Shown here: piece after piece, positions 7,518-25,404 of the stretch
Position numbering within the stretch: position 1 is the stretch's first letter
How the letters are laid out: each line of letters starts with the position of its first letter
NCBI GenBank assembly: GCA_016213945.1
Contig: JACQZF010000094.1
Location: forward strand, 1 to 32,596
Source: Nitrospirota bacterium
Lineage (GTDB): Bacteria > Nitrospirota > Thermodesulfovibrionia > UBA6902
Reading direction: 5' to 3'
Length of the DNA stretch: 32,596 nt
Position numbers and translations under genes: made by a program
Notes under the pieces: model-generated
Seen by the model: only the letters and a program-made list of their open reading frames with translations
What the model was told of the DNA's origin: nothing
The model's database searches: none

Positions 7518-10500
7518 CTAAACCTTAATTACCTCTCCAGTGTGGGTGAACACAATAAACGCCTGCACGCTTTTTGTGTTGTACAATTCCCGCACGGCCT
7601 TTTTATAGAGATTGAGCTGAAACGAATATTCCTTAAGCAAGTATTCAACTTCTTTTTCTTTCACGGGGAATGTTTTGTAGTCATAAATTTTATATACATC
7701 ATTCTCTTTTATCAGCCTGTCGATCCTTCCGGAATAAACAACATCTCCGGCTTCAAGTATGAACGGCAGCTCCGTGAATGAATCTTCTCTGGGCATTATG
7801 ATATTCTGCCAGATGCCTTTTTCTTTCAGCAGGGAAATATCGTTATCGATGATCGAAAGCTTTTCTTCAAGCTGCGCTCCGTGGGTCCCTTTTGACTCAA
7901 GCAGTCTCTTTGCCCTTGCGGCAATCTCCTGCTCTTGTAACATCCCTTTTGACACGCCCTCAAATATCCTGTGCATAATGTCTCCGAGGACCAGCCAGTC
8001 CTTGCCGTGCCGACGCCTGATGTCCGCGGTCTCCGTGACCGCCTTCCACGGGGCCTGCTCCGGGACGGTGACAGGAATGACGTCAATGCGAAGCGGGACT
8101 GCTTTTTCAGCTTCATATTTGTGCGCATGTTCATAGAGCATCTGCACATCTTCCTCCGACAATATTGCCAGCCCCTCAATATCCGCTTTTACGTTGAATA
8201 ATCCACCTTCCTTTTCAATATCAAGTCCCTGCCTTAGGAGGCTTAAAAAACTCCTGTCCCTGCCGTTCCAATGTCCGATGAGGACAAGCGCTTCCCCTGC
8301 CCTCGTTACCGCGACATAGAAAAGCCTTTTCTGTTCCTCTTCCTCTTTTGCCTGATGGACCTGGAAATCCTCATCCCCTTTGCGTATTGATGGTTCGGGG
8401 ATGGACTTGAAAAAAAATCCCCCTCCGTCCCCCTTTTCCAAAGGGGGATACATCTGGTTCCCCTCTTTGTAAAAGAGGGGTAAGGGGAGATTTTTTTCAT
8501 ACACAAGGTTCTCATTTGTTGATGTCTTGAATTGTTCTTCAATGCCGGGAATAAAAACAACCGGGAACTCAAGCCCTTTTGCCGCGTGGATCGTCATTAT
8601 CTTCACTGCGTCCATCCCCTCGGTATTCACGTTTGCCTTTGGCTCTTCATTCTTGTCAAAGGTCCTTTCAAGAAAATCCCTTATCTTGATAAGCGACTTG
8701 CCGCCCGCCTCAAGCTCCTCTATTATCCTTATGAACTTCTTGATGTTCGCCCTTCTCTGCGGTTCATGAAAATATCTCCACGCCTTTGTCCTGACAAGTG
8801 CCTGCTCGATGATTTCAGAGAGAGGCAAATACGCTGATTGTGTTAGCCAGTTTTGGAGGCTGACTACAGCATTGTTAATTGTCTCAGAGAATCCCCCTTC
8901 ATCCCCCTTTTTCAAAGGGAGAGATTCCCCTCTATCAAGAGGGGTTAGGGGTGTGTCCCCCCCTTTAGCAAAGGGGGGCAAGGGGGGATTTCCATTGACG
9001 CAATTCTTCATCTTTTCAAACAAACTGTCTCCCTCTCTGCTTATTAATTGGATGATGACACTTTCACCGATATTGAAAAGCAGGCCCTTCAGCAGGATGT
9101 AAAGGCTGTAGTCATCGCACGGGTTTGAGAGAAAAAATACAAGCGCCCTGAGCATGGCGACTTCCGGCTCCTGGTAGAAACCTATGCCTTTCACAGTGAC
9201 AAACGGGATGTTGCAGCTTCTTAACGCCTCTTCATATTTTCTCAGATGGGTCCTTTTCCTTAAAAGTATTACAATGTCCGTGTACCTGCAAAACCTCTGC
9301 TGCCCGGTATTCCTGTCCGTTATCTGAAAGTTTCCTACAAGGCTTTGTATCCTTTGCGCAAGGACATCAGCCTCCTTTTGTTTTGCCTCCTGGATTGGCT
9401 GGTCTTCTTCATTGAGCAGTACGACCTCAACCCTCCCCGTGTGGGGAATACCCGGCCTGTGCGCGCTGAAGGGGCTGTATCTCGTTTCCCATGAATAGCG
9501 GGCCTGCTCTGAGTACATGATCTTTGAAAAGACATGGTTTGTAAATTCAACGATCGCCGGAAGACTGCGGTAATTCTCCTTTGCCTCTTCATATTGAAAT
9601 TCATCGCCGAGCCAGTCCTGCATCTTTTCCCTTGCCCTGCGGAAGATCTCTACATTTGCGCCCCTGAAATAATAAATGGACTGCTTTTCATCACCCACAA
9701 GAAATATGGTCGGGCAGGTTCCTTCTTCCCTTTTTGCGCCCATGCCTGAACGCCATTCCTCTGTCAGCTTATCGATGATCGTCCATTGAAAAGTATTGGT
9801 GTCCTGAAACTCATCAACAAGGATGTGGTCTGTTTTTTCATCAAACGCGTACAGGATGTTGGCCCACTCTGGATTTTCTGTGAGGGTCTTATAGGAGATA
9901 TATTCGAGATCGCTGAAGTCGAGAGCGCCCTTTGCCTTTTTCCGTTCAGTGTACGCGGCCAGACATTTTTCAAAGATCCTCCTGGTCCTCTCCCCTCTCC
10001 GGGCGTATTCCCTGAATTTTTCTTCTTCCCAGTACTTGTACATTTTTGCGGCCCAGTCTTTAAAATCCGGGATTTTTTTAAGCGCCTGATGTGCCCTTTG
10101 GCGCGGGTCTTTTGCCTTGGTCATAAAATAGTCTTCCAATAAGACGATCTTATTAGAAGGACCGTCCTCAAATATTTTTTCATAACCATCAATCGCATCT
10201 TTTACCCCATGCCATGATCTCAGTTCCTCAATTAAAGAATCAGTAGCGGGCTGTGTGTAAATAAAAGATCGGGCCTCAGTGGAAAACGGCGTCTTCTGAA
10301 AAAGATAGTCAACCGTATTCTTGAGATAATCAAGCCCCCTGAACCCTTTCTCGCTGAGCGTTTGCAGAATGAAATTGTCTTCCTGAATATGTGAGGACGA
10401 TTTATGCAGCGCACCCGCAGGGTCGGGTTTGAAACCCGCCCCTACAGCCATCAAAACATCATGCAGTATCTCATCCCATTCCATGCCGGATTCAATTGCG

Positions 10501-10829
10501 TCCTGGGTTTTGTAATTTGGATCGATTGCAGCTTCAAAGGAAAAACGCCTCAGTAGCGTCCCGCAAAAAGAGTGAATGGTGGACACGCGCATGAGGGGTA
10601 TCTTTTCAAGGAGATGCCGGAAGAGCGGCTCGTCCTCGTTCTTGAGTATCTTGAGTATCCTCTGCTTCATCTCGGCAGAGGCCTTCTCGGTAAAAGTAAT
10701 GGCGAGAATCCTCTCAACCTCAACGCCTTTTTGAAGCAGGGCAATGTAACGCCTCGCAAGCTTTTCGGTCTTTCCCGACCCTGCCGGAGAGGAGATCATT
10801 ATGCTTTTGTCAGTGTCGAGATAACTCAT
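7518..10829 (-). CDS. addA: AddA-type helicase/nuclease (UvrD-like helicase plus PD-(D/E)XK nuclease)
   Basis: 1103 residues. Helicase motifs in order: Walker A SPAGSGKTEKL (about 14-24), AITFTEKA (Ia), HILVDEFQDTN (II), VGDEKQSIYYFRG (III), MTIHAAKGLEFPVV (V), RLFYVAVTRA (VI). The C-terminal RecB-family nuclease shows LGDIMHRIFEGV, the Asp in SGRIDRLI, and YDYKTF, so both catalytic activities look intact. With AddB it processes double-strand ends for RecA loading. The start ATG overlaps the addB stop by 4 bases. Three repeat elements are inserted in frame, giving NPPLPPFAKGG..KKGDEGGF at about 613-647, a second of this type at about 777-806, and VGAGFKPDPAG at about 128-138. They leave all motifs untouched, so they probably lie in loops. 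Confidence 0.93.
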   Translation of the reverse strand: MSYLDTDKSIMISSPAGSGKTEKLARRYIALLQKGVEVERILAITFTEKASAEMKQRILKILKNEDEPLFRHLLEKIPLMRVSTIHSFCGTLLRRFSFEAAIDPNYKTQDAIESGMEWDEILHDVLMAVGAGFKPDPAGALHKSSSHIQEDNFILQTLSEKGFRGLDYLKNTVDYLFQKTPFSTEARSFIYTQPATDSLIEELRSWHGVKDAIDGYEKIFEDGPSNKIVLLEDYFMTKAKDPRQRAHQALKKIPDFKDWAAKMYKYWEEEKFREYARRGERTRRIFEKCLAAYTERKKAKGALDFSDLEYISYKTLTENPEWANILYAFDEKTDHILVDEFQDTNTFQWTIIDKLTEEWRSGMGAKREEGTCPTIFLVGDEKQSIYYFRGANVEIFRRAREKMQDWLGDEFQYEEAKENYRSLPAIVEFTNHVFSKIMYSEQARYSWETRYSPFSAHRPGIPHTGRVEVVLLNEEDQPIQEAKQKEADVLAQRIQSLVGNFQITDRNTGQQRFCRYTDIVILLRKRTHLRKYEEALRSCNIPFVTVKGIGFYQEPEVAMLRALVFFLSNPCDDYSLYILLKGLLFNIGESVIIQLISREGDSLFEKMKNCVNGNPPLPPFAKGGDTPLTPLDRGESLPLKKGDEGGFSETINNAVVSLQNWLTQSAYLPLSEIIEQALVRTKAWRYFHEPQRRANIKKFIRIIEELEAGGKSLIKIRDFLERTFDKNEEPKANVNTEGMDAVKIMTIHAAKGLEFPVVFIPGIEEQFKTSTNENLVYEKNLPLPLFYKEGNQMYPPLEKGDGGGFFFKSIPEPSIRKGDEDFQVHQAKEEEEQKRLFYVAVTRAGEALVLIGHWNGRDRSFLSLLRQGLDIEKEGGLFNVKADIEGLAILSEEDVQMLYEHAHKYEAEKAVPLRIDVIPVTVPEQAPWKAVTETADIRRRHGKDWLVLGDIMHRIFEGVSKGMLQEQEIAARAKRLLESKGTHGAQLEEKLSIIDNDISLLKEKGIWQNIIMPREDSFTELPFILEAGDVVYSGRIDRLIKENDVYKIYDYKTFPVKEKEVEYLLKEYSFQLNLYKKAVRELYNTKSVQAFIVFTHTGEVIKV
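8410..8497. repeat. C/G-rich palindromic element inside addA (PPLEKG type)
   Basis: An 88-bp inverted repeat: an A8-TCCCCCT left end matches an AGGGGAGAT7 right end, and each half contains its own smaller hairpin (CCCCCTTTTCC-AAAGGGGG and CCCCTCTTT-GTAAAAGAGGGG). It is translated on the minus strand as part of AddA (about residues 777-806) without stop or frameshift. It belongs to the same family as the elements at 8890, 11142, 12344 and 23637. Confidence 0.85.
8890..8992. repeat. Tripartite C/G-rich palindromic element inside addA (PPLPPFAKGG type)
   Basis: About 103 bp made of three consecutive hairpin units, each C-run / 4-6 nt / G-run: around TTTTTCAAAGGGA, CTATCAAGAGGGG and CTTTAGCAAAGGGG. 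Read on the minus strand it gives NPPLPPFAKGG, then PLTPLDRGE, then LPLKKGDEGGF within AddA, between helicase motifs III and V. The different versions of the family (FAKGG, LDRGE, LKKGDEGGF) are lined up head to tail. Confidence 0.87.
10419..10446. repeat. Short palindrome inside addA (VGAGFKP type)
   Basis: GGGTCGGGTTT-GAAACCCGCCCCTAC forms an imperfect palindrome with a GGGTTTGAAACCC core. Read on the minus strand it gives VGAGFKPDPAG in the AddA N-terminal helicase region. Its arms resemble the GCAGGGGCG-type palindromes at 24955 and 25145. Confidence 0.65.
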
Positions 10830-13741
10830 TTTGCGCCCTCACACAGCGGGGCGTGATCGCAGTATCTGCATTCATTGCCGCTGCCCGGTTCAGAGGGGAA
10901 CGAGCCCTTTTTCATTCCGTCAACAAGCTCCCCGGTTTTTTGCAAAGCGTCCTGCATGAATTTCTCCATAGTATCTTTTTTGGGATACCATGTCACACTG
11001 CCGTCCTTTAGAGAATAATATCCGACCCTTTCCACCGCACCCTTGAAATTCTCCTGCCACATGCGGGCATACAACTGCATCTGAAGACTGTCGCTGTCCA
11101 TCGAGCCGGTCTTGTAATCAAGGAGGATGACCTTTGCGCCTGAAAAGCCCCCTTCATCCCCCTTTGCCAAAGGGGGAATATTTTTCTTCTGCTGACTGCT
11201 GACTGCTGACTGCTGACTCCTCACATCAATCCTGTCTATCTTTCCCTTCAGCCTGGTCCCGTCGATCTCTGCCTTTATGTTTTCTTCAATCTTGTACGGG
11301 ATGAACCCTTCCGCCCTTATTGCTGTTTCCTGTTCTTTAAGCAAGGGTAAAAGTTTTTTAAATATCTCTCTTGCCACATTCGACCAGAAATCCCCTATGG
11401 GAAATTCCTTCAGACTTTTTTCAAGTGACTGATAAAGTCTCTGCTCTAATGTGTCCAATGAAAATCCTTTGTCCTCAAACAGATACTCCATGGTCTTGTG
11501 CGCAAGGCTGCCCCAGAGTCTGTACTCCACTTCGAACCTCGGCGGTTCCTCTAATTCAAGTGAGAGGACCCTTTCGATATAAAAACGCAGCGGGCATTTC
11601 CTGTAGAAGTCAATATCGGTCACCCTGAAATAACCCTTTGACATTGCGCCGATCCTCCGCCGCAGGATCTCAAGCGTGTTTTTATCAAAGGACATTTCAG
11701 CGCCCCAGGACAATTTCGGCATCACCCCTGCGGCCCCTTCTCTAACGAGGATGTCTTCCTCTGTAAAGATGTTCAGCTCCACTGGACAGAGAGATTTCTC
11801 CCAGTCGAGAAAAGGCGAAGGCAGAAATATTTTGTCGCCCTCCGCGGAAGGGCATGAAAAATACGGATCAAGCGCTGAGGCATTGAGGAGCATTTTGAAA
11901 TACATTTTTTGCCTGTTAAAATAATATTCGAGATGGGGCATCCCCAATTCCCGTTTTACCTTCTCAGGCAATATGGGGTCTATTCCCGGCCTGGAAGGAA
12001 AATTCTCCTCTAATACCCCGCCGAAAAACAGCGCCTTGCTCTCAAGCCCGGCAGCTATTTCATAAGGCAGTATCTTGACTCCGCTTATGTCCTCATCCGC
12101 GGCGCTTATGCCCTGCAATAAATACCTCATATACGCGCCGGCTTTGTGCAAACCTGTTTCATGCAACCCGGCAAATTGTCTCAGCTCTGAAAACAAGTTC
12201 TCAACCGCGCGGGATATTTCGTCCTTGCTCCTCCCCTTATCTAAGGGGAGGCCGGGTGGGGTTACCTGTGAATTATCCAGATAACCAAAGAACCCTAATT
12301 TGTCTAATGCCGACTCAAAAGCGTCGATAAACGAGATCAGACCAAATCCCCCCATCCCCCCTTTGGCAAAGGGGGGCAAGGGGGGATTTTTTATACTTTC
12401 AAGAATATCAATGACCTGTTTGATACCCTTTTGAAATTCAGCGATCTTGTTTTTCTCATCTTCCGTTAAAGCCTCTTTCGGTGCATTCCTGAGCACTGCC
12501 TCAACGGAAAGCCAGGATTGTCTCCCTTTAATGGTCCCCGCCCGGTATGAATAAGTGACCGCCCGCTCTTTTACGCTTTCAGGTATCGACGGGAAACAGG
12601 GCGATGTTATCAAAGAGAGAAAATCATTTCTCGGATAATCATCCTCGATGCAGGCGAGTACCCCCTCAAGCGCCATGAACGGTTTTGTGGTTGAAAGATC
12701 ATATTCCCCAAGGCTGACCGGGATGCCGTGTTTCCTGAAGATCCTTTTGAGCATTGGAATGTAGCGTGAGGGCGAAGGGAAACACACGGTCATCTCCCAG
12801 GGTTTTACCCCGTCGATAATGAATTTTTTTATCCCCTTTGCAATGCCCTCGACTTCTTCTTCCATTGAAGGGTATGAATAATATCCTGTATCTTCCCGGC
12901 GTACAGCGCTCTCAAGCTTCTTTGTTGTAATTCCTTCTTTGTGCGTCTCAAAAAATTTCAGAAACTCCGTGCCCTCTCCTGCAATTATGTAAGACTTCCC
13001 TGCCCTGTCAATTAGGGCCGTTATGATCTCAAGCTCAACCGGCGTCGGATCAAAGAACCCGTCAACAACAAGAACGCCGACCTGGAACCCCTCTTTGTCC
13101 TTACCCTTATCTAAGGGGAAGATAGGTGAGGTTAACGGATTTCCTGACTTCTGACTTCCGACTTCTGACTTCCGACTTATTATCCTCAGCATATCTTCCG
13201 CATCAATCAGATTTTTTTCTTTCAGGAAATCTTCATACGCCTGCAGGACCTCGATAGCCTGCACCGCCCTCTCCTTCGTCTTCTCTTCAAATATCAGTTT
13301 TTTGATGTCTTCCTTTATTTGCGAAATATTTTTGTCCGGGATGTACTGCCTGATCTTCTGAAAGAGTTCCGACAAGAGCTGGGCATATCCGATGCTTTTT
13401 TCTTTAAGTATCTCGCACAGGACAAGCGTCCTGATCCTTGCGGAGATGGCGTTCCTCCCCTTATCTAAGGGGAGGTCAGGTGGGGTTATGTTTTCATGCA
13501 GATTTACAGCAAGCTGTTTTATGGTCAATGCCTGGAAGGGGACATACGCGGAGCTCTTGCGGACATTTTTTTGATACGAGAAGAAATGCCTTTTGGCTTC
13601 CGAGGCAACGTAAGTATTCGGAGCGAGATATAATACTGACGAAAAATCATTGTCAGGGCACAGGGAAACGATCTCTTTGAAGACTCTTTCCTTTTTGTTC
13701 CTTGCGCCAAGAGGCGATATGAAAAGCGTTCCTTCTTTCAC
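10826..13741 (-). CDS. addB: AddB-type nuclease subunit with Fe-S cysteines
   Basis: 971 residues. The N-terminus (FISPLGARNKKERVF) sits where AddB proteins have an ATP site, but I see no GxxxxGK[ST] motif, so this helicase-like half is probably not an ATPase. The C-terminal PD-(D/E)XK nuclease has GSLAHKTMEYLF, GKIDRID and LLDYKTG. The Fe-S cluster cysteines are visible as CPLRFY upstream and the terminal CRYCDHAPLC. It forms the AddAB end-resection complex with the next gene, which overlaps by 4 bases. At least five palindromic elements and two heptamer arrays are read through in frame: about residues 84-96 (TPPDLPLDKGR), 188-214 (SEVGSQKS..PIFPLDKGK), 450-466 (NPPLPPFAKGG), 492-505 (TPPGLPLDKGR) and 841-867 (between DRID and DYKTG). 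The last splits the nuclease core at what should be a beta-turn. Confidence 0.88.
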   Translation of the reverse strand: MKEGTLFISPLGARNKKERVFKEIVSLCPDNDFSSVLYLAPNTYVASEAKRHFFSYQKNVRKSSAYVPFQALTIKQLAVNLHENITPPDLPLDKGRNAISARIRTLVLCEILKEKSIGYAQLLSELFQKIRQYIPDKNISQIKEDIKKLIFEEKTKERAVQAIEVLQAYEDFLKEKNLIDAEDMLRIISRKSEVGSQKSGNPLTSPIFPLDKGKDKEGFQVGVLVVDGFFDPTPVELEIITALIDRAGKSYIIAGEGTEFLKFFETHKEGITTKKLESAVRREDTGYYSYPSMEEEVEGIAKGIKKFIIDGVKPWEMTVCFPSPSRYIPMLKRIFRKHGIPVSLGEYDLSTTKPFMALEGVLACIEDDYPRNDFLSLITSPCFPSIPESVKERAVTYSYRAGTIKGRQSWLSVEAVLRNAPKEALTEDEKNKIAEFQKGIKQVIDILESIKNPPLPPFAKGGMGGFGLISFIDAFESALDKLGFFGYLDNSQVTPPGLPLDKGRSKDEISRAVENLFSELRQFAGLHETGLHKAGAYMRYLLQGISAADEDISGVKILPYEIAAGLESKALFFGGVLEENFPSRPGIDPILPEKVKRELGMPHLEYYFNRQKMYFKMLLNASALDPYFSCPSAEGDKIFLPSPFLDWEKSLCPVELNIFTEEDILVREGAAGVMPKLSWGAEMSFDKNTLEILRRRIGAMSKGYFRVTDIDFYRKCPLRFYIERVLSLELEEPPRFEVEYRLWGSLAHKTMEYLFEDKGFSLDTLEQRLYQSLEKSLKEFPIGDFWSNVAREIFKKLLPLLKEQETAIRAEGFIPYKIEENIKAEIDGTRLKGKIDRIDVRSQQSAVSSQQKKNIPPLAKGDEGGFSGAKVILLDYKTGSMDSDSLQMQLYARMWQENFKGAVERVGYYSLKDGSVTWYPKKDTMEKFMQDALQKTGELVDGMKKGSFPSEPGSGNECRYCDHAPLCEGAK
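11142..11182. repeat. C/G-rich palindromic element inside addB nuclease domain
   Basis: The core CCCCCTTTG-C-CAAAGGGGG (11158-11176) is a perfect palindrome and is preceded by the family's CCCCCTTCATCC lead. Minus-strand reading is IPPLAKGDEGGF. It directly abuts the heptamer array at 11191. Confidence 0.85.
11191..11218. repeat. Heptamer array, 4 x GCTGACT, inside addB
   Basis: Four exact tandem copies of GCTGACT (AGTCAGC on the coding strand), with a partial unit before. Because 7 is not a multiple of 3, the coding strand runs through all three phases and gives SQQSAVSSQQ. The coding strand is the orientation without stops; the other strand contains TGA in one phase. Confidence 0.9.
12228..12265. 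repeat. Palindromic element inside addB (LPLDKG type)
   Basis: The core at 12230-12251 is a perfect 22-bp palindrome (CCTCCCCTTA, centre TC, then TAAGGGGAGG), followed by CCGGGTGGGGTTAC. The identical 22-bp core recurs at 13454-13475. Minus-strand peptide: TPPGLPLDKGR. Confidence 0.88.
12344..12392. repeat. C/G-rich palindromic element inside addB (PPLPPFAKGG type)
   Basis: A central CCCCCCTTTG / CAAAGGGGGG hairpin is flanked by AAATCCCCCC on the left and GGGGGGATTT on the right, giving a nested double palindrome. Minus-strand peptide: NPPLPPFAKGGMGGF. Confidence 0.88.
13100..13135. repeat. Palindromic element inside addB (FPLDKG type)
   Basis: A CCCTTATCTAAGGGG core with a GATAGGTGAGGTTA tail, a diverged copy of the elements at 12228 and 13454. 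Minus-strand peptide: TSPIFPLDKGK. It lies 8 bp from the heptamer array at 13144, making a composite insertion. Confidence 0.8.
13144..13178. repeat. Heptamer array, 5 units CTGACTT/CCGACTT, inside addB
   Basis: Units in order: CTGACTT, CTGACTT, CCGACTT, CTGACTT, CCGACTT. The coding strand (AAGTCAG/AAGTCGG) gives KSEVGSQKSG. It uses the same word as the arrays at 22262 and 23250 in the cobalamin operon 9-10 kb away. Confidence 0.92.
13454..13491. repeat. Palindromic element inside addB (LPLDKG type), second exact core
   Basis: The 22-bp core at 13454-13475 is identical to 12230-12251, and the tail TCAGGTGGGGTTATG is a close variant. Minus-strand peptide: ITPPDLPLDKGR. The core contains TTAGATAA on the coding strand, which has stops in two frames; only the frame actually used is open. 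Confidence 0.88.
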
Positions 13742-13800
13742 TCGAGTATCCCGATCAAATCTTACTTTCTTTCATGTTTTAGTTGAAGCGCAATTTTATA

Positions 13801-13882
13801 TAACCACTGAGGCACTGAGACACAGAGAAAAAATGGAGACTATATTCTTGTCTTTCTCCGTGCCTCCGTGTCTCTGTGGTTA
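13801..13882. repeat. Palindromic MITE-like element, left copy flanking the HhH/HIT gene pair
   Basis: Left arm TAACCACTGAGGCACTGAGA and onward to about 13832; right arm 13851-13882 ends CCGTGTCTCTGTGGTTA; a loop of about 15-18 nt lies between. The arms are built of 8-base words (GGCACTGA, GACACAGA; TGCCTCCG, TGTCTCTG). Positions 13848-13882 are an exact 35-base reverse complement of 15029-15063, so the element at 15029 is an inverted copy. It lies between addB and the HhH-GPD gene and contains no ORF. Confidence 0.9.
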
Positions 13883-15028: not shown

Positions 15029-15122
15029 TAACCACAGAGACACGGAGGCACGGAGAAAGACAATAAAAAATCTTTATGTTTATATGGTTATTTTTCTCTG
15101 TGTCTCAGTGACTCAGTGGTTA
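15029..15122. repeat. Palindromic MITE-like element, right copy (inverted relative to 13801)
   Basis: Left arm 15029-15063 is the exact reverse complement of 13848-13882 (35 bases). Right arm, about 15091-15122 (ending GACTCAGTGGTTA), matches the reverse complement of 13801-13832 with one mismatch. The loop is A/T-rich, about 27 nt, and different from the other copy. It occupies much of the gap between the HIT gene and the histidine kinase. Confidence 0.9.
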
Positions 15123-15218
15123 TTTTTAAGTTTTTTCAACTTAAATACAAAAGAAAGAAACTTTTCACTTAATAAGTATAGTTATACTGAGCAAATTTTA
15201 AAAGAGGAGGATAGAGAA

Positions 15219-21507: not shown

Positions 21508-22255
21508 AATCTACTTTATCGGCGCGGGCCCCGGCGACCCGGAGTTAATTACTGTCAAGGGTAAAAAGCTCATTGACGACGCTGATGTGGTTATATATGC
21601 GGGAAGCCTCGTCAATCGCGCGCTGCTTGACGGGATCAAGGCAGAGATACATGATTCATCCGGCATGACGCTTGATGACATAATTAATCTAATTAAAAAA
21701 TCTTTTGATATCGGCAAACTCGTTGTCAGGCTACACACAGGCGATCCCGCCTTCTACAGCGCGATATCAGAACAAATAGAGAAACTGCGTGAGTTGAATA
21801 TCCCGTACGGAGTCGTCCCCGGCGTATCTTCCGCCTCGGCAGGCGCGGCAGCGCTAAGGCAGGAGCTTACCATTCCAGAGATAAGCCAGACAGTGATCTT
21901 CACGCGCATCGAGGGAAGGACCCCTGTTCCTGAAAAAGAAAGGCTCGGCGAGCTTGCAAAACACGACGCTTCAATGGTGATATTTTTAAGCGTCGGGATG
22001 ATTGAAAAAGTGAGGGCTGAATTACTTCAGGGTTATCCTGAAGACACGCCGGTTGCAATAATTGAAAAAGCATCCTGGCCTGAGCAGAGGGTTTTCAGAG
22101 GAACATTGAGAAACATTGTTGACATTGTTAAAGATGCTGGCATAAAAAAGACCGCGTTAATTTATGTAGGCGCCGCACTGAAGGCGTCTGAGGAACAACT
22201 GAAAAAAGAATCGAAACTCTATCACAAGGATTTCAAACATGAGTACAGAAAGTAG
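21497..22255 (+). CDS. cobM: (Cobalt-)precorrin-4 C11-methyltransferase
   Basis: 252 residues (CobM/CbiF). It methylates C11 of precorrin-4 using SAM. Marks: YFIGAGPGDPELITVKGKKL, VIYAGSLVN, the characteristic IHDSSGMTLDDI, VVRLHTGDPAFYSAI, VPGVSSASAGAAAL and TVIFTRIEGRTPVP. It is unaffected by repeats, unlike its neighbours. It overlaps the HD gene by 11 bases and the cbiG-cbiH gene by 17 bases. Confidence 0.95.
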   Translation: MQNKIYFIGAGPGDPELITVKGKKLIDDADVVIYAGSLVNRALLDGIKAEIHDSSGMTLDDIINLIKKSFDIGKLVVRLHTGDPAFYSAISEQIEKLRELNIPYGVVPGVSSASAGAAALRQELTIPEISQTVIFTRIEGRTPVPEKERLGELAKHDASMVIFLSVGMIEKVRAELLQGYPEDTPVAIIEKASWPEQRVFRGTLRNIVDIVKDAGIKKTALIYVGAALKASEEQLKKESKLYHKDFKHEYRK

Positions 22256-24146
22256 TAAAAGAAGTCAGAAGTCAGAAGTCAGAAGTCAGAATAAAAGAAC
22301 CGCCGCGATTTTTTATATTACAGACAACGGTTTCAAGCTTGCTCAGGAGATCAGGAAACTTTATCCTGATGCACGGGTTTTTAAATTTAAGGCAGATGCC
22401 GTATCCAAAAGCTGGGGGGAAAATAATGCTCTCATCTTCCTCATGGCATCAGGCATTGTAGTAAGAACAATCGCCCCTTTGATAAAAGATAAAAAGACCG
22501 ACCCCGCTGTTGTGGTCCTTGATGAAAAAGGCAGATATGCCGTCAGCCTCTTAAGCGGTCATCTCGGAGGGGCAAACGGGCTTGCAAAAGAGATCGCCGC
22601 CTTTCTCAAAGGTGAGGCAGTCATAACGACCGCGTCTGATGTGCAGGGGAAGGTCTCACTTGACCTGTGGGCAAAAGACAATGATCTTTATATTGAGGAT
22701 TTTGAGAAATTGAAGAAGCTGAGTTCAAAGATCGTTAACGGAAAAAAGATCAAGGTCTGGCCTGACCATACGATAAAGGTCCCGGATGAATTCATTACTG
22801 TTGATTCAGCAAAGGGTGCTGAATTAATTATTTCTCATAAGCTCGTGAAATCGAATGCGCTTTTCCTGCGGCCAAAGACACTTATCACAGGCATCGGCTG
22901 CAATCGCGGGACTTCTGCGGCAGAGATTGAGAATACAATAAAGAAAGTCCTGCTAAAGGAAAAGCTGTCTTTCCATTCAATAAGAAATCTCGCCACGATC
23001 GATATTAAAAAAGACGAGAAAGGATTAACTGGCTTCGCAGGTGAAAACAAACTGGATATAAAATTCTTCTCAAAAGAAGAATTGAACAGCGCTGTATCAA
23101 CGTTTGACCTTGCACGATCAAAAACCGTTGAAGCTGCAACCGGCGCAATGGCTGTTGCAGAGCCAGCCGCGCTCCTTTCGGCAGGCTCTGATAAATTACT
23201 TGTACCAAAACAGAAGATCGGGAATGTGACGGTGGCTGTAGCTATAAGAAAGTCAGAAGTCAGAAGTCAGAAGTCAGAAAAGCAAAACCCGTCACTCGTC
23301 ACCCGTCACCCGTCACTTTTCATCGTCGGAACCGGGCCGGGGAATATCGAGCACATTACCCCGAGCGCGCAGGAAGCTATAAGGCGATCTGACGTTATCG
23401 TCGGTTATGGAACATACCTTGACCTGGTCCCGGAGTTGATCAAAGGCAAAGAAGTCGTCTCTACAGGTATGACTAAGGAAGTGGACAGATGCCGGAAGGC
23501 TGTTGAATTGGCATTACAGGGAAAAACCGTTGCCGTCATCAGCGGCGGCGACCCCGGCATTTACGCAATGGCCGGTCTGGTGTTTGAGATGATCAGAGCA
23601 GAAGAGCAGAAGAGCAAAAGAGCAAAAGAAACCCCACCTTGTTCCTCCCCTTGCCAAGGGGAGGATAGGAGGGGTCAAACTTCTGCACTTTTGCGCTTCG
23701 GCACTTCTGCACTTTCTGTCGAAGTCATTCCCGGCATATCCGCGTTGAACGCCTGTGCCGCGCGGCTCGGCGCTCCTCTCATGCACGACTTCGCTTCAAT
23801 AAGTCTTTCAGACAGATTGACCCCCTGGGAAGTTATTGAGAAGCGGCTTGAAGCGGCGGCGGCGGCTGATTTTGTTATCGCGCTTTATAATCCAAAGAGC
23901 AAAGGAAGGCAGGAACACATCAACAGGGCACAGGAGATAATCCTGAAACACAGAAGTCCTGACACCCCTGTTGGAATAGTAAAAGGCGCAATGAGAGAGA
24001 ATGAGGAGATCGTAATCACGGACCTGAAAAATATGCTCAGCCACGACATTGATATGCAGACAACCGTGATAATCGGCAACTCAAAAACATTTGTCTGGAA
24101 CAACCGGATTATTACGCCAAGAGGGTATGAAAAGAAAATACAGTAA
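22239..24146 (+). CDS. cbiGH: CbiG-CbiH fusion: cobalt-precorrin-5A hydrolase and cobalt-factor III/precorrin-3B C17-methyltransferase
   Basis: 635 residues. The CbiG part is about 20-336: TAAIFYITDNG, SGHLGGANGLAKEIA (106-120), GIGCNRGTSAAEIE (218-231). It opens the ring lactone and releases acetaldehyde. The CbiH part is about 360-635: FIVGTGPGNIEHITP, VISGGDPGIYAMAGLV, VEVIPGISALNACAARLGAPLMHDF. It methylates C17 with ring contraction. Both enzymes act in sequence-adjacent steps of the anaerobic pathway, and CbiG indicates that route. Repeat DNA forms the N-terminal extension (residues 8-17), the entire CbiG-CbiH linker (337-359) and a loop of about 40 residues in CbiH (453-493). AAGGA about 9 nt before ATG serves as RBS. 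It overlaps cobM by 17 bases and the next gene by 20. Confidence 0.93.
   Translation: MSTESSKRSQKSEVRSQNKRTAAIFYITDNGFKLAQEIRKLYPDARVFKFKADAVSKSWGENNALIFLMASGIVVRTIAPLIKDKKTDPAVVVLDEKGRYAVSLLSGHLGGANGLAKEIAAFLKGEAVITTASDVQGKVSLDLWAKDNDLYIEDFEKLKKLSSKIVNGKKIKVWPDHTIKVPDEFITVDSAKGAELIISHKLVKSNALFLRPKTLITGIGCNRGTSAAEIENTIKKVLLKEKLSFHSIRNLATIDIKKDEKGLTGFAGENKLDIKFFSKEELNSAVSTFDLARSKTVEAATGAMAVAEPAALLSAGSDKLLVPKQKIGNVTVAVAIRKSEVRSQKSEKQNPSLVTRHPSLFIVGTGPGNIEHITPSAQEAIRRSDVIVGYGTYLDLVPELIKGKEVVSTGMTKEVDRCRKAVELALQGKTVAVISGGDPGIYAMAGLVFEMIRAEEQKSKRAKETPPCSSPCQGEDRRGQTSALLRFGTSALSVEVIPGISALNACAARLGAPLMHDFASISLSDRLTPWEVIEKRLEAAAAADFVIALYNPKSKGRQEHINRAQEIILKHRSPDTPVGIVKGAMRENEEIVITDLKNMLSHDIDMQTTVIIGNSKTFVWNNRIITPRGYEKKIQ
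22262..22289. repeat. Heptamer array 4 x AAGTCAG at the 5' end of cbiGH
   Basis: Four exact units beginning 23 bases into the gene, giving SQKSEVRSQ right after the start of the protein. It is identical in word to 13144-13178 (opposite strand) and 23250-23277. Confidence 0.93.
23250..23315. repeat. Double heptamer array at the CbiG-CbiH junction
   Basis: Four AAGTCAG units (23250-23277), a 10-base spacer AAAAGCAAAA, then CCCGTCA, CTCGTCA, CCCGTCA, CCCGTCA (23288-23315). The two words share a GTCA core in the same register (GAA-GTCA and CCC-GTCA). Read through as RKSEVRSQKSE and then SLVTRHPSL, directly before the FIVGTGPG start of the CbiH domain. Confidence 0.93.
23595..23711. repeat. Nested composite element inside the CbiH domain
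   Basis: Outer arms: octamers AGAGCAGA, AGAGCAGA, AGAGCAAA, AGAGCAAA (23595-23626), and on the other side CTTCTGCA, CTTTTGCG, CTTCGGCA, CTTCTGCA (23680-23711), roughly complementary to the first. Between them sits a C/G-rich palindrome with core CCTCCCCTTG-C-CAAGGGGAGG (23644-23664), the family found in addB. The whole is in frame and adds about 40 residues. Confidence 0.9.
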
Positions 24147-25404
24147 CGCCCTTCTCTGGGATGAATCCTTCCTCTGGGGATTGATGGCGTATAAGGCTTT
24201 AAACTCCGCGAACCTGCCATTTGATCTTGTCCGTTCAGAAGATATAAAGAACGGCAAGCTCGAAAATTATAAAATGCTCTTTGTCCCCGGGGGATGGGCC
24301 TCGAATAAATTGAAGTCCCTCGGAGACACCGGTGTCAGCGAGATAAAAAAATTTGTAAACAACGGTGGCAATTACCTCGGCTTCTGCGGCGGCGCGGGAC
24401 TTGCCACACTTGACAGCATCGGGCTTTTAAATATCAAACGCAAACCCACAAAGGAAAGAGTCCCAAGCTTCAGCGGAAGGGTCCATTTAAATGTAAATAA
24501 ACACCCGATGTGGAATGGGATAACGACAGCACTCAGCAGTCAGCGATCAGCAGTCCGTAAAAAACCAACTCCTAATTCCCAACCCCTAATCCCTGTCTTT
24601 CACGCCTGGTGGCCTTCGCAATTTGTGGTTGATAATGATGACATTAAAATACTCGCTTCATACGGTGATGCCTTGCCTGACGCATTTAGTTCAGACCTGA
24701 ATGTCGGAGATGTTGAAGATAATCAAAACTGGCAGGAACTTGAAAAGGTCTACCGTATAAATCTCGACCCGAAGAGATTGCTCAATGAACCGGCCGTTGT
24801 TGAAAGTAGTTATGGGAAAGGGAAGGTGATTTTATCCCTCATCCACTTTGATACGCCTGACGACATCAACGGGCAGCAGGTGTTGAGAAATTTATGGGCG
24901 TACCTCGGAGATAAACAAAAAAGTGCAGAAGTGCAGAAGCGCAGCAGTGCAGAAGCAGGGGCGATTCGCGAATCGCCCCTGCTTAAAGAATTGGAACTAT
25001 CTGTCAAAGATTTAATCTCTCTTGGTGAGAGGAACTTCCTCTGGTTCTGGAGAAATCCCATGCTGCTTCAATGGAGGCGGGGTGTCAGGGGGCTTGAGTA
25101 TTGCACGTTGTATATGATGATGAAAGAGATTGAGGAAATCATTTGCAGGGGCGATTCGCGAATCGCCCTTACGCGGCATATTTCACACGTTAAACAATTA
25201 CTGATCCCATTCGTGGAGAAGGCAAAACGGCTTCTCATCCTTGAACGTCATGCCTTGCAGAAAGGCCCTATCACTTACGAAAGATGTGATGACCCGGATA
25301 TCCAGAAAATAAGGGCTGAGCTCTTCTCCGAATCCAAGAGCCACGGGGGGATGTTCAAAGAACTTATTGACGAAGTGGACAAGCTTTTATATTCGATCCT
25401 GTAG
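24127..25404 (+). CDS. BPL_N / class I glutamine amidotransferase-like protein of unknown function
   Basis: About 425 residues from ATG 24127; a longer frame beginning with TTG at 24091 would be inside cbiGH and is unlikely. The N-terminus (NALLWDESF, YKMLFVPGGWA, NNGGNYLGFCGGAGLAT) is like the biotin-protein-ligase N-terminal (BPL_N) domain, a class I amidotransferase-type fold with a nucleophile-like Cys87 in GFCGGAG. Further conserved-looking blocks are FHAWWPSQF and VVESSYGKGKVILSLIHFDTPDD. The last third is helical and unassigned. Four repeat tracts are read through: 24530-24592, 24921-24954, 24955-24982 and 25145-25172. It overlaps cbiGH by 20 bases and is the last gene of the operon; a cobalamin role is inferred from position only. 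Confidence 0.7.
   Translation: MKRKYSNALLWDESFLWGLMAYKALNSANLPFDLVRSEDIKNGKLENYKMLFVPGGWASNKLKSLGDTGVSEIKKFVNNGGNYLGFCGGAGLATLDSIGLLNIKRKPTKERVPSFSGRVHLNVNKHPMWNGITTALSSQRSAVRKKPTPNSQPLIPVFHAWWPSQFVVDNDDIKILASYGDALPDAFSSDLNVGDVEDNQNWQELEKVYRINLDPKRLLNEPAVVESSYGKGKVILSLIHFDTPDDINGQQVLRNLWAYLGDKQKSAEVQKRSSAEAGAIRESPLLKELELSVKDLISLGERNFLWFWRNPMLLQWRRGVRGLEYCTLYMMMKEIEEIICRGDSRIALTRHISHVKQLLIPFVEKAKRLLILERHALQKGPITYERCDDPDIQKIRAELFSESKSHGGMFKELIDEVDKLLYSIL
24530..24592. repeat. Two adjacent heptamer arrays inside the BPL_N gene
   Basis: CACTCAG, CAGTCAG, CGATCAG, CAGTCCG (24530-24557), then after TAAAAAA the units CCAACTC, CTAATTC, CCAACCC, CTAATCC (24565-24592). Read as LSSQRSAVRKK and PTPNSQPLIP. 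Two different 7-base vocabularies lie side by side, as at the CbiG-CbiH junction. Confidence 0.88.
24921..24982. repeat. Octamer array fused to a perfect palindrome inside the BPL_N gene
   Basis: AAGTGCAG, AAGTGCAG, AAGCGCAG, CAGTGCAG (24921-24952), followed at 24955-24982 by a perfect 28-bp palindrome with arms GCAGGGGCGATTCG / CGAATCGCCCCTGC. Read as KSAEVQKRSSAEAGAIRESP. Confidence 0.92.
25145..25172. repeat. Second copy of the GATTCGCGAATC palindrome inside the BPL_N gene
   Basis: GCAGGGGCGATTCG / CGAATCGCCCTTAC, the same orientation-less palindrome as 24955-24982 with two changes at the right end. Read in a different frame, as CRGDSRIALTR. Confidence 0.9.

Follow-up and report, generated by a model that had tools for sequence, protein, structure and literature searches.

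Small repeats of several families inserted in frame in addA, addB and other genes of a Nitrospirota bacterium

The region described here lies on a stretch of 32,596 nucleotides (the window) that forms contig 83 of the 3.5-Mb, 101-contig draft genome of a Nitrospirota bacterium. On its reverse strand, the window carries addB (10826..13741), which encodes a nuclease subunit of 971 amino acids, and addA (7518..10829), which encodes a helicase/nuclease of 1,103 amino acids; the two genes overlap by 4 bp (ATGA, 10826-10829). Both were assigned from Pfam domains (UvrD-helicase, UvrD_C, and PDDEXK_1 in AddA, PDDEXK_1 in AddB) and from alignments of 16 AddA and 20 AddB orthologues taken from 20 related genomes. 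The helicase and nuclease motifs of AddA and the nuclease motifs of AddB, described as intact in the initial annotation, are indeed in place. Inspected by eye, AddA retains AGSGKT, DEFQD, and IDRLIKENDVYKIYDYKT, and AddB retains GKIDRIDV...ILLDYKTG together with the C-terminal cysteines. AddA is matched by the structure of Bacillus subtilis AddA (3u44), on which the inserts map to poorly aligned linkers; no sequence match to AddB was found in the PDB. In the nearest relative (G004, about 89-91% identical at the DNA level), addB and addA are separated by a 112-bp insertion with a palindrome of the ATCCACAGATT..AATCTGTGGAT type (window 10826-10829; L031).

All of the roughly ten in-frame repeats that had been proposed for this gene pair were found, at most a few bases from the proposed positions and free of stop codons. 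Three kinds can be told apart: CCCCTT..AAGGGG palindromes, of which some are compound, a single palindrome of the form TAGGGGCGGG..CCCGACCC, and a pair of 7-bp arrays. All are read on the reverse strand. AddA contains three insert sites. A compound CCCC..GGGG palindrome with two hairpins (8410..8499, AddA ~777-806) is predicted to fold at -46.8 kcal/mol (z -4.9); G004 carries a different, shorter palindrome at this site, leaving a net difference of +30 bp. A second compound palindrome, with three hairpins (8886..8992, AddA ~610-648, z -3.6), is absent from G004 (net +57), and the TAGGGGCGGG..CCCGACCC palindrome (10416..10446, AddA ~128-138, z -3.6) is common to both genomes.

The remaining seven elements are in AddB. 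Three of these are shared with G004: the 3' part of a CCCC..GGGG palindrome (11143..11179, AddB ~855-867), situated in the loop that precedes ILLDYKTG in the nuclease, a (TCAGCAG)n 7-bp array (11187..11219, AddB ~842-852) that reads as QQSAVSSQQ, and a CCTCCCCTTATCTAAGGGGAGG-type CCCC..GGGG palindrome (13453..13488, AddB ~85-96, z -3.65). A TAACCCCACC..CCTCCCCTTATCTAAGGGGAGG-type palindrome of the same family (12227..12264, AddB ~493-505, net +24) is not found in G004. The full 46-bp palindrome AAATCCCCCC..CCCCCCTTT-NNN-AAAGGGGGG..GGGGGGATTT (12344..12389, AddB ~452-467, net +36, -34.7 kcal/mol, z -3.6) is missing in all 20 AddB orthologues; here (NPPLPPFAKGGMGGF) sixteen residues take the place of four host residues (QAKD in G004). 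Finally, a degenerate CCCCTTATCTAAGGGG-type palindrome (13098..13134, AddB ~203-215) and a (GAAGTCA/GAAGTCG)n 7/14-bp array (13140..13179, AddB ~188-201), both lacking in G004, together account for a net +57 bp. The elements stand above chance: across the 3.5-Mb genome, 57 copies of the core CCCCTTTNNNAAAGGGG were counted, 4 of these within the 6.2 kb of addAB, but not one of its reversed control.

Alignment with relatives identifies these elements as true lineage-specific insertions. Most orthologues are shorter at the element positions, many AddB orthologues of the same family lack any element, and four insert sites (AddB 188-219, 452-467, and 493-505; AddA 610-648) have no counterpart even in G004, which does share the inserts at AddA 128-138, AddB 85-96, and AddB 842-867. 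In the DNA alignment with G004, which is 89% identical along the aligned part, the net length differences within addA and addB are 57, 36, 24, 57, and 30 bp, each a multiple of 3.

The same loops are used by different repeat families in different species, which marks the sites as tolerant loops. The AddB loop before ILLDYKTG in the nuclease domain, occupied here and in G004 by a TCAGCAG array plus a palindrome, contains GAAGTCA-type arrays in five relatives (G001, G006, G008, G009, and G021). In G032 its occupant is a TCAGCAG array, in G036 a GATTCAA array together with a palindrome, and in G038 an array of 8-bp units. Likewise, palindromes of the TAGGGGCG type occupy the AddA loop around residue 132 in this genome, in G004, and, judged by pattern, in G026, whereas G009 and G036 have CCCC..GGGG palindromes at this loop and G005 has a 7-bp array. 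The AddA loop around residue 610 harbors other palindromes in six relatives (G006, G008, G009, G018, G032, and G036). Orthologues vary in length where the elements lie: for seven of the eight insert sites, relatives show independent changes in length no more than 6 alignment columns away, compared with a background of about 21% of positions. This coincidence argues for tolerance of the sites rather than for a link with double-strand-end repair.

The initial annotation had held that the reading frame of these genes must be under selection, and this is borne out well beyond addAB. We sampled 1.19 Mb of the genome itself and about 0.77 Mb of G004, of which 240 kb could be aligned collinearly at about 90% identity, using longest-ORF gene calls and no trained gene finder. 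Genes in this alignment contain 42 indels that are 12 bp or longer, and the length of 40 of these is divisible by 3 (binomial p 3e-17 for an expectation of one-third), compared with 26 of 81 at gene edges or in intergenic DNA. One of the repeats described here is contained in 34 of the 42 large coding indels, ten times on both sides of the comparison, and in some of these two-sided cases one species has an array of 7- or 8-bp units where the other has a palindrome. Orientation is constrained as well. Period-7 arrays number 58 in the 1.19 Mb, 50 of them within genes and almost all readable; 35 of the genic arrays contain stops on one strand only, and every one of the 35 lies in the open orientation (p 6e-11). 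Among genic palindromes, just 4 of 54 are in the stop-prone phase (15- and 17-bp cores; p 7e-6). The elements are distributed over the whole gene length and not concentrated at the start, which speaks against an artefact of gene calls that extend too far at the 5' end. The argument for selection on the reading frame is therefore supported genome-wide.

Turnover differs between the families. Palindromes turn over fast (among 25 compared, 4 are shared, 12 absent, and 9 diverged), whereas the 7-mer arrays are longer-lived, with 11 of 20 shared. In the own-genome sample, palindromes amount to 54 per Mb in genes and 114 per Mb outside, and 7-mer arrays to 65 and 131 per Mb, figures that are approximate as genome-wide densities because the contigs were partly picked for holding palindromes. 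This roughly 2-fold genic depletion does not fit a model in which elements enter at random and those that shift the frame, introduce stops, or lie in the wrong orientation are then lost, for which a minimum of 3- to 6-fold is predicted. As possible reasons, intergenic copies could be replaced faster, by larger intergenic palindromes, or arrays could be frozen in genes, where dropping a single 7-bp unit would disrupt the frame.

Taken together, we consider it highly probable that small repeats from several unrelated families are inserted widely and then filtered by selection on frame, stops, and folding. In this bacterium and its relatives, the repeats enter at many genomic positions, now and then in exchange for a few bases of the host, and clean insertion sites show no target-site duplication. 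Selection presumably removes most insertions in genes; those that survive preserve the frame, lie in a phase or orientation free of stops, and fall in loops that tolerate extra residues. Judging from the intact frames, the surviving inserts would be translated and give short hydrophilic stretches, for example NPPLPPFAKGGMGGF or EVRSQKSEV. They are probably near neutral, and their entry before selection is probably random. Being long and having several tolerant loops, addA and addB collected ten elements. A stronger proposal, that the families are adapted to life in genes, being stop-poor in most phases, specifying hydrophilic loop peptides, sharing landing sites in loops, and causing most of the larger changes in protein length between sister species of the clade, seems to us possible but rather unlikely.

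Ten elements within 6.2 kb might suggest that AddAB is a preferred target, either because insertion occurs at the double-strand ends on which AddAB acts or because the elements gain from a disturbed AddAB, and an earlier survey found many of the intragenic REPs in genes for replication and repair, recBCD among them, and a site in recB of Xanthomonas that is used repeatedly (PMC3733652). The gene pair had also been singled out as the densest in the window, an assessment that did not hold. Under one detection rule, addB has 6 elements (2.06/kb) and addA 2 strict matches (0.6/kb), whereas a CbiG/CbiH-like cobalamin enzyme on the forward strand (22239..24146) has six (3.15/kb); the gene at 24091-25404 has three, and CbiD, at 4.19/kb, is denser still. 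addB is among the top genes. Counts per gene are over-dispersed, with 757 of 863 genes lacking elements and 32 having at least two. Genes with elements are longer and more diverged (identity 0.903 versus 0.919, p 1e-4). Of the 32 genes with several elements, about 8 resemble genes for cobalamin enzymes; the rest include those for LeuRS, GMP synthase, DnaX, TilS, chorismate synthase, and LpxK. With cobalamin genes heading the list and housekeeping genes making up much of the remainder, insert sites that are variable loops, and many AddB orthologues of the same family free of elements, the suggestion that the resection enzyme itself is the target finds no support, and we regard it as very improbable. 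A role of the inserts as useful peptides or RNA hairpins, kept for translation regulation or new protein contacts, is somewhat easier to entertain. The strength of the predicted hairpins, which in addAB reach a z of -4.9, the genic depletion of only 2-fold, and the age of some shared 7-mer arrays would agree with it. However, the fast turnover of palindromes and the replacement of one family by another at a single site mean that no particular sequence is conserved, and we think such a role improbable. That the elements reflect misassembly or decaying pseudogenes is hardly credible: the genome is a draft of 101 contigs, but frames are intact, motifs are conserved, like inserts arise independently in relatives, several are common to G004, and the elements are present in enzymes expected to be essential.

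A further alternative concerns only the mobilizing enzyme and is compatible with the selective filter, namely that the elements are REPs moved by the RAYT (Y1) transposases of the same genomes. RAYT-like Y1 matches are present in all ten genomes of the genus, and across these, Y1 gene and palindrome numbers, compared by hand, rise together (rank correlation ~0.7). Within the genus, palindrome copy number ranges from 2 to 162, and across the class the palindrome is patchy, occurring in 122 of 230 genomes, with almost no occurrences of the control. At 23 clean insertion/deletion sites, a set that includes non-element indels, no target-site duplication of more than 3 bp was detected; this sets the elements apart from a classical transposon or MITE and would fit single-stranded DNA transposition. 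Yet a survey of Y1 genes and their flanks across the genus showed no consistent association with the palindromes and led us to set RAYT mobilization aside: a CCCC..GGGG palindrome lies near 1 of 29 Y1 loci and a GGGGCG..CGCCC palindrome likewise near 1 of 29. Moreover, the complete Y1 gene of this genome (L073:1376-2150) is flanked by a different inverted repeat, GGGGACACATCCCATATTTT, and the CCCC..GGGG elements have no GTAG tag. Movement by RAYTs is thus rather unlikely, though not negligibly so. The GGGGACACATCCCATATTTT repeats at L073 resemble the GGGGWSAS terminal inverted repeats described in PMC3733652.

The families involved are CCCCTT..AAGGGG palindromes of ~35-100 bp, palindromes of the form TAGGGGCG..CGCCC, and tandem arrays with units of 7 or 8 bp. 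The window contains no Rfam match, and a literature search with the element sequences and peptides returned nothing relevant. By description, the families recall the dispersed repeats of Nostoc (Elhai and others, 2008), which are reportedly very small, mobile, and able to enter genes. The parallel with Rickettsia palindromic elements drawn at the outset is apt as an analogy. Those elements are in-frame palindromic repeats of several families, found in unrelated protein genes and specific to lineages (PMC10969869), and the same can be said of the palindromes described here. However, the latter measure 35-100 bp rather than ~150 bp, differ in sequence and in the kind of host, and are accompanied by tandem 7/8-bp arrays. 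Compared with RPE-4/6, no CGTC-tagged terminus was seen, and full copies are 46 bp with AAAT..ATTT ends. Small palindromes inside genes are likewise known as intragenic GTAG/CGTC-tagged REPs, which often add 20-30 residues, although most published REPs are intergenic (PMC3733652). The TAGGGGCG-type elements resemble such tagged REPs; TAGGGG precedes 23 of about 48 GGGGCG..CGCCC matches, and several copies read GTAGGGGCG. The main CCCC..GGGG family, in contrast, has neither GTAG nor CGTC tags and does not adjoin RAYT genes. The arrays, as tandem 7-bp units in many dispersed copies, are of the kind of the cyanobacterial STRR and the TAACTGA heptanucleotide repeats, which are likewise short, numerous per genome, and patchy (PMC4679880), but the TAACTGA repeats are mostly intergenic. 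PARCEL repeats also combine coding capacity with dyad symmetry but form tandem 25-residue domains, many in membrane-targeted proteins (PMC2996958), whereas here single inserts occur in enzymes. In-frame insertion of repeats is an already known kind of event, and it does not single out addAB. Among described phenomena it comes closest to Rickettsia palindromic elements and to intragenic REPs, and by sequence, length, and tags the main family belongs to neither.

The observations extend a process best known from Rickettsia to another bacterial group, with several repeat families acting at once. Given that about four in five of the larger coding indels between two sister species involve these repeats, the clade lends itself well, as a natural experiment, to learning which loops of proteins will take up foreign peptides and how a genome that is ~90% coding can be colonized by repeats.

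The repeat-rich cobalamin genes (CbiG/H, CbiD, CbiA/CobB, CbiB, CobQ, and CobD- and CobC-like) are among the richest sampled and lie at window 22239-25404, L059:13205-19594, L078:6734-7930, and L087:18259-19917. A 20-kb stretch of L059 has no DNA match in G004 at 1e-80. One gene in the window contains two identical GCAGGGGCGATTCGCGAATCGCCC palindromes (24955-24978 and 25145-25168), 190 bp apart. Larger palindrome families of ~100-190 bp (AACCACAGAG.., ATCCACAGATT.., GTCATTCC..GGAATGAC, and CTGTCCATAA..) occupy window positions 13800-13882 and 15029-15132 and many other intergenic sites, and a given site often has one of these families in this genome (G000) and another in G004.
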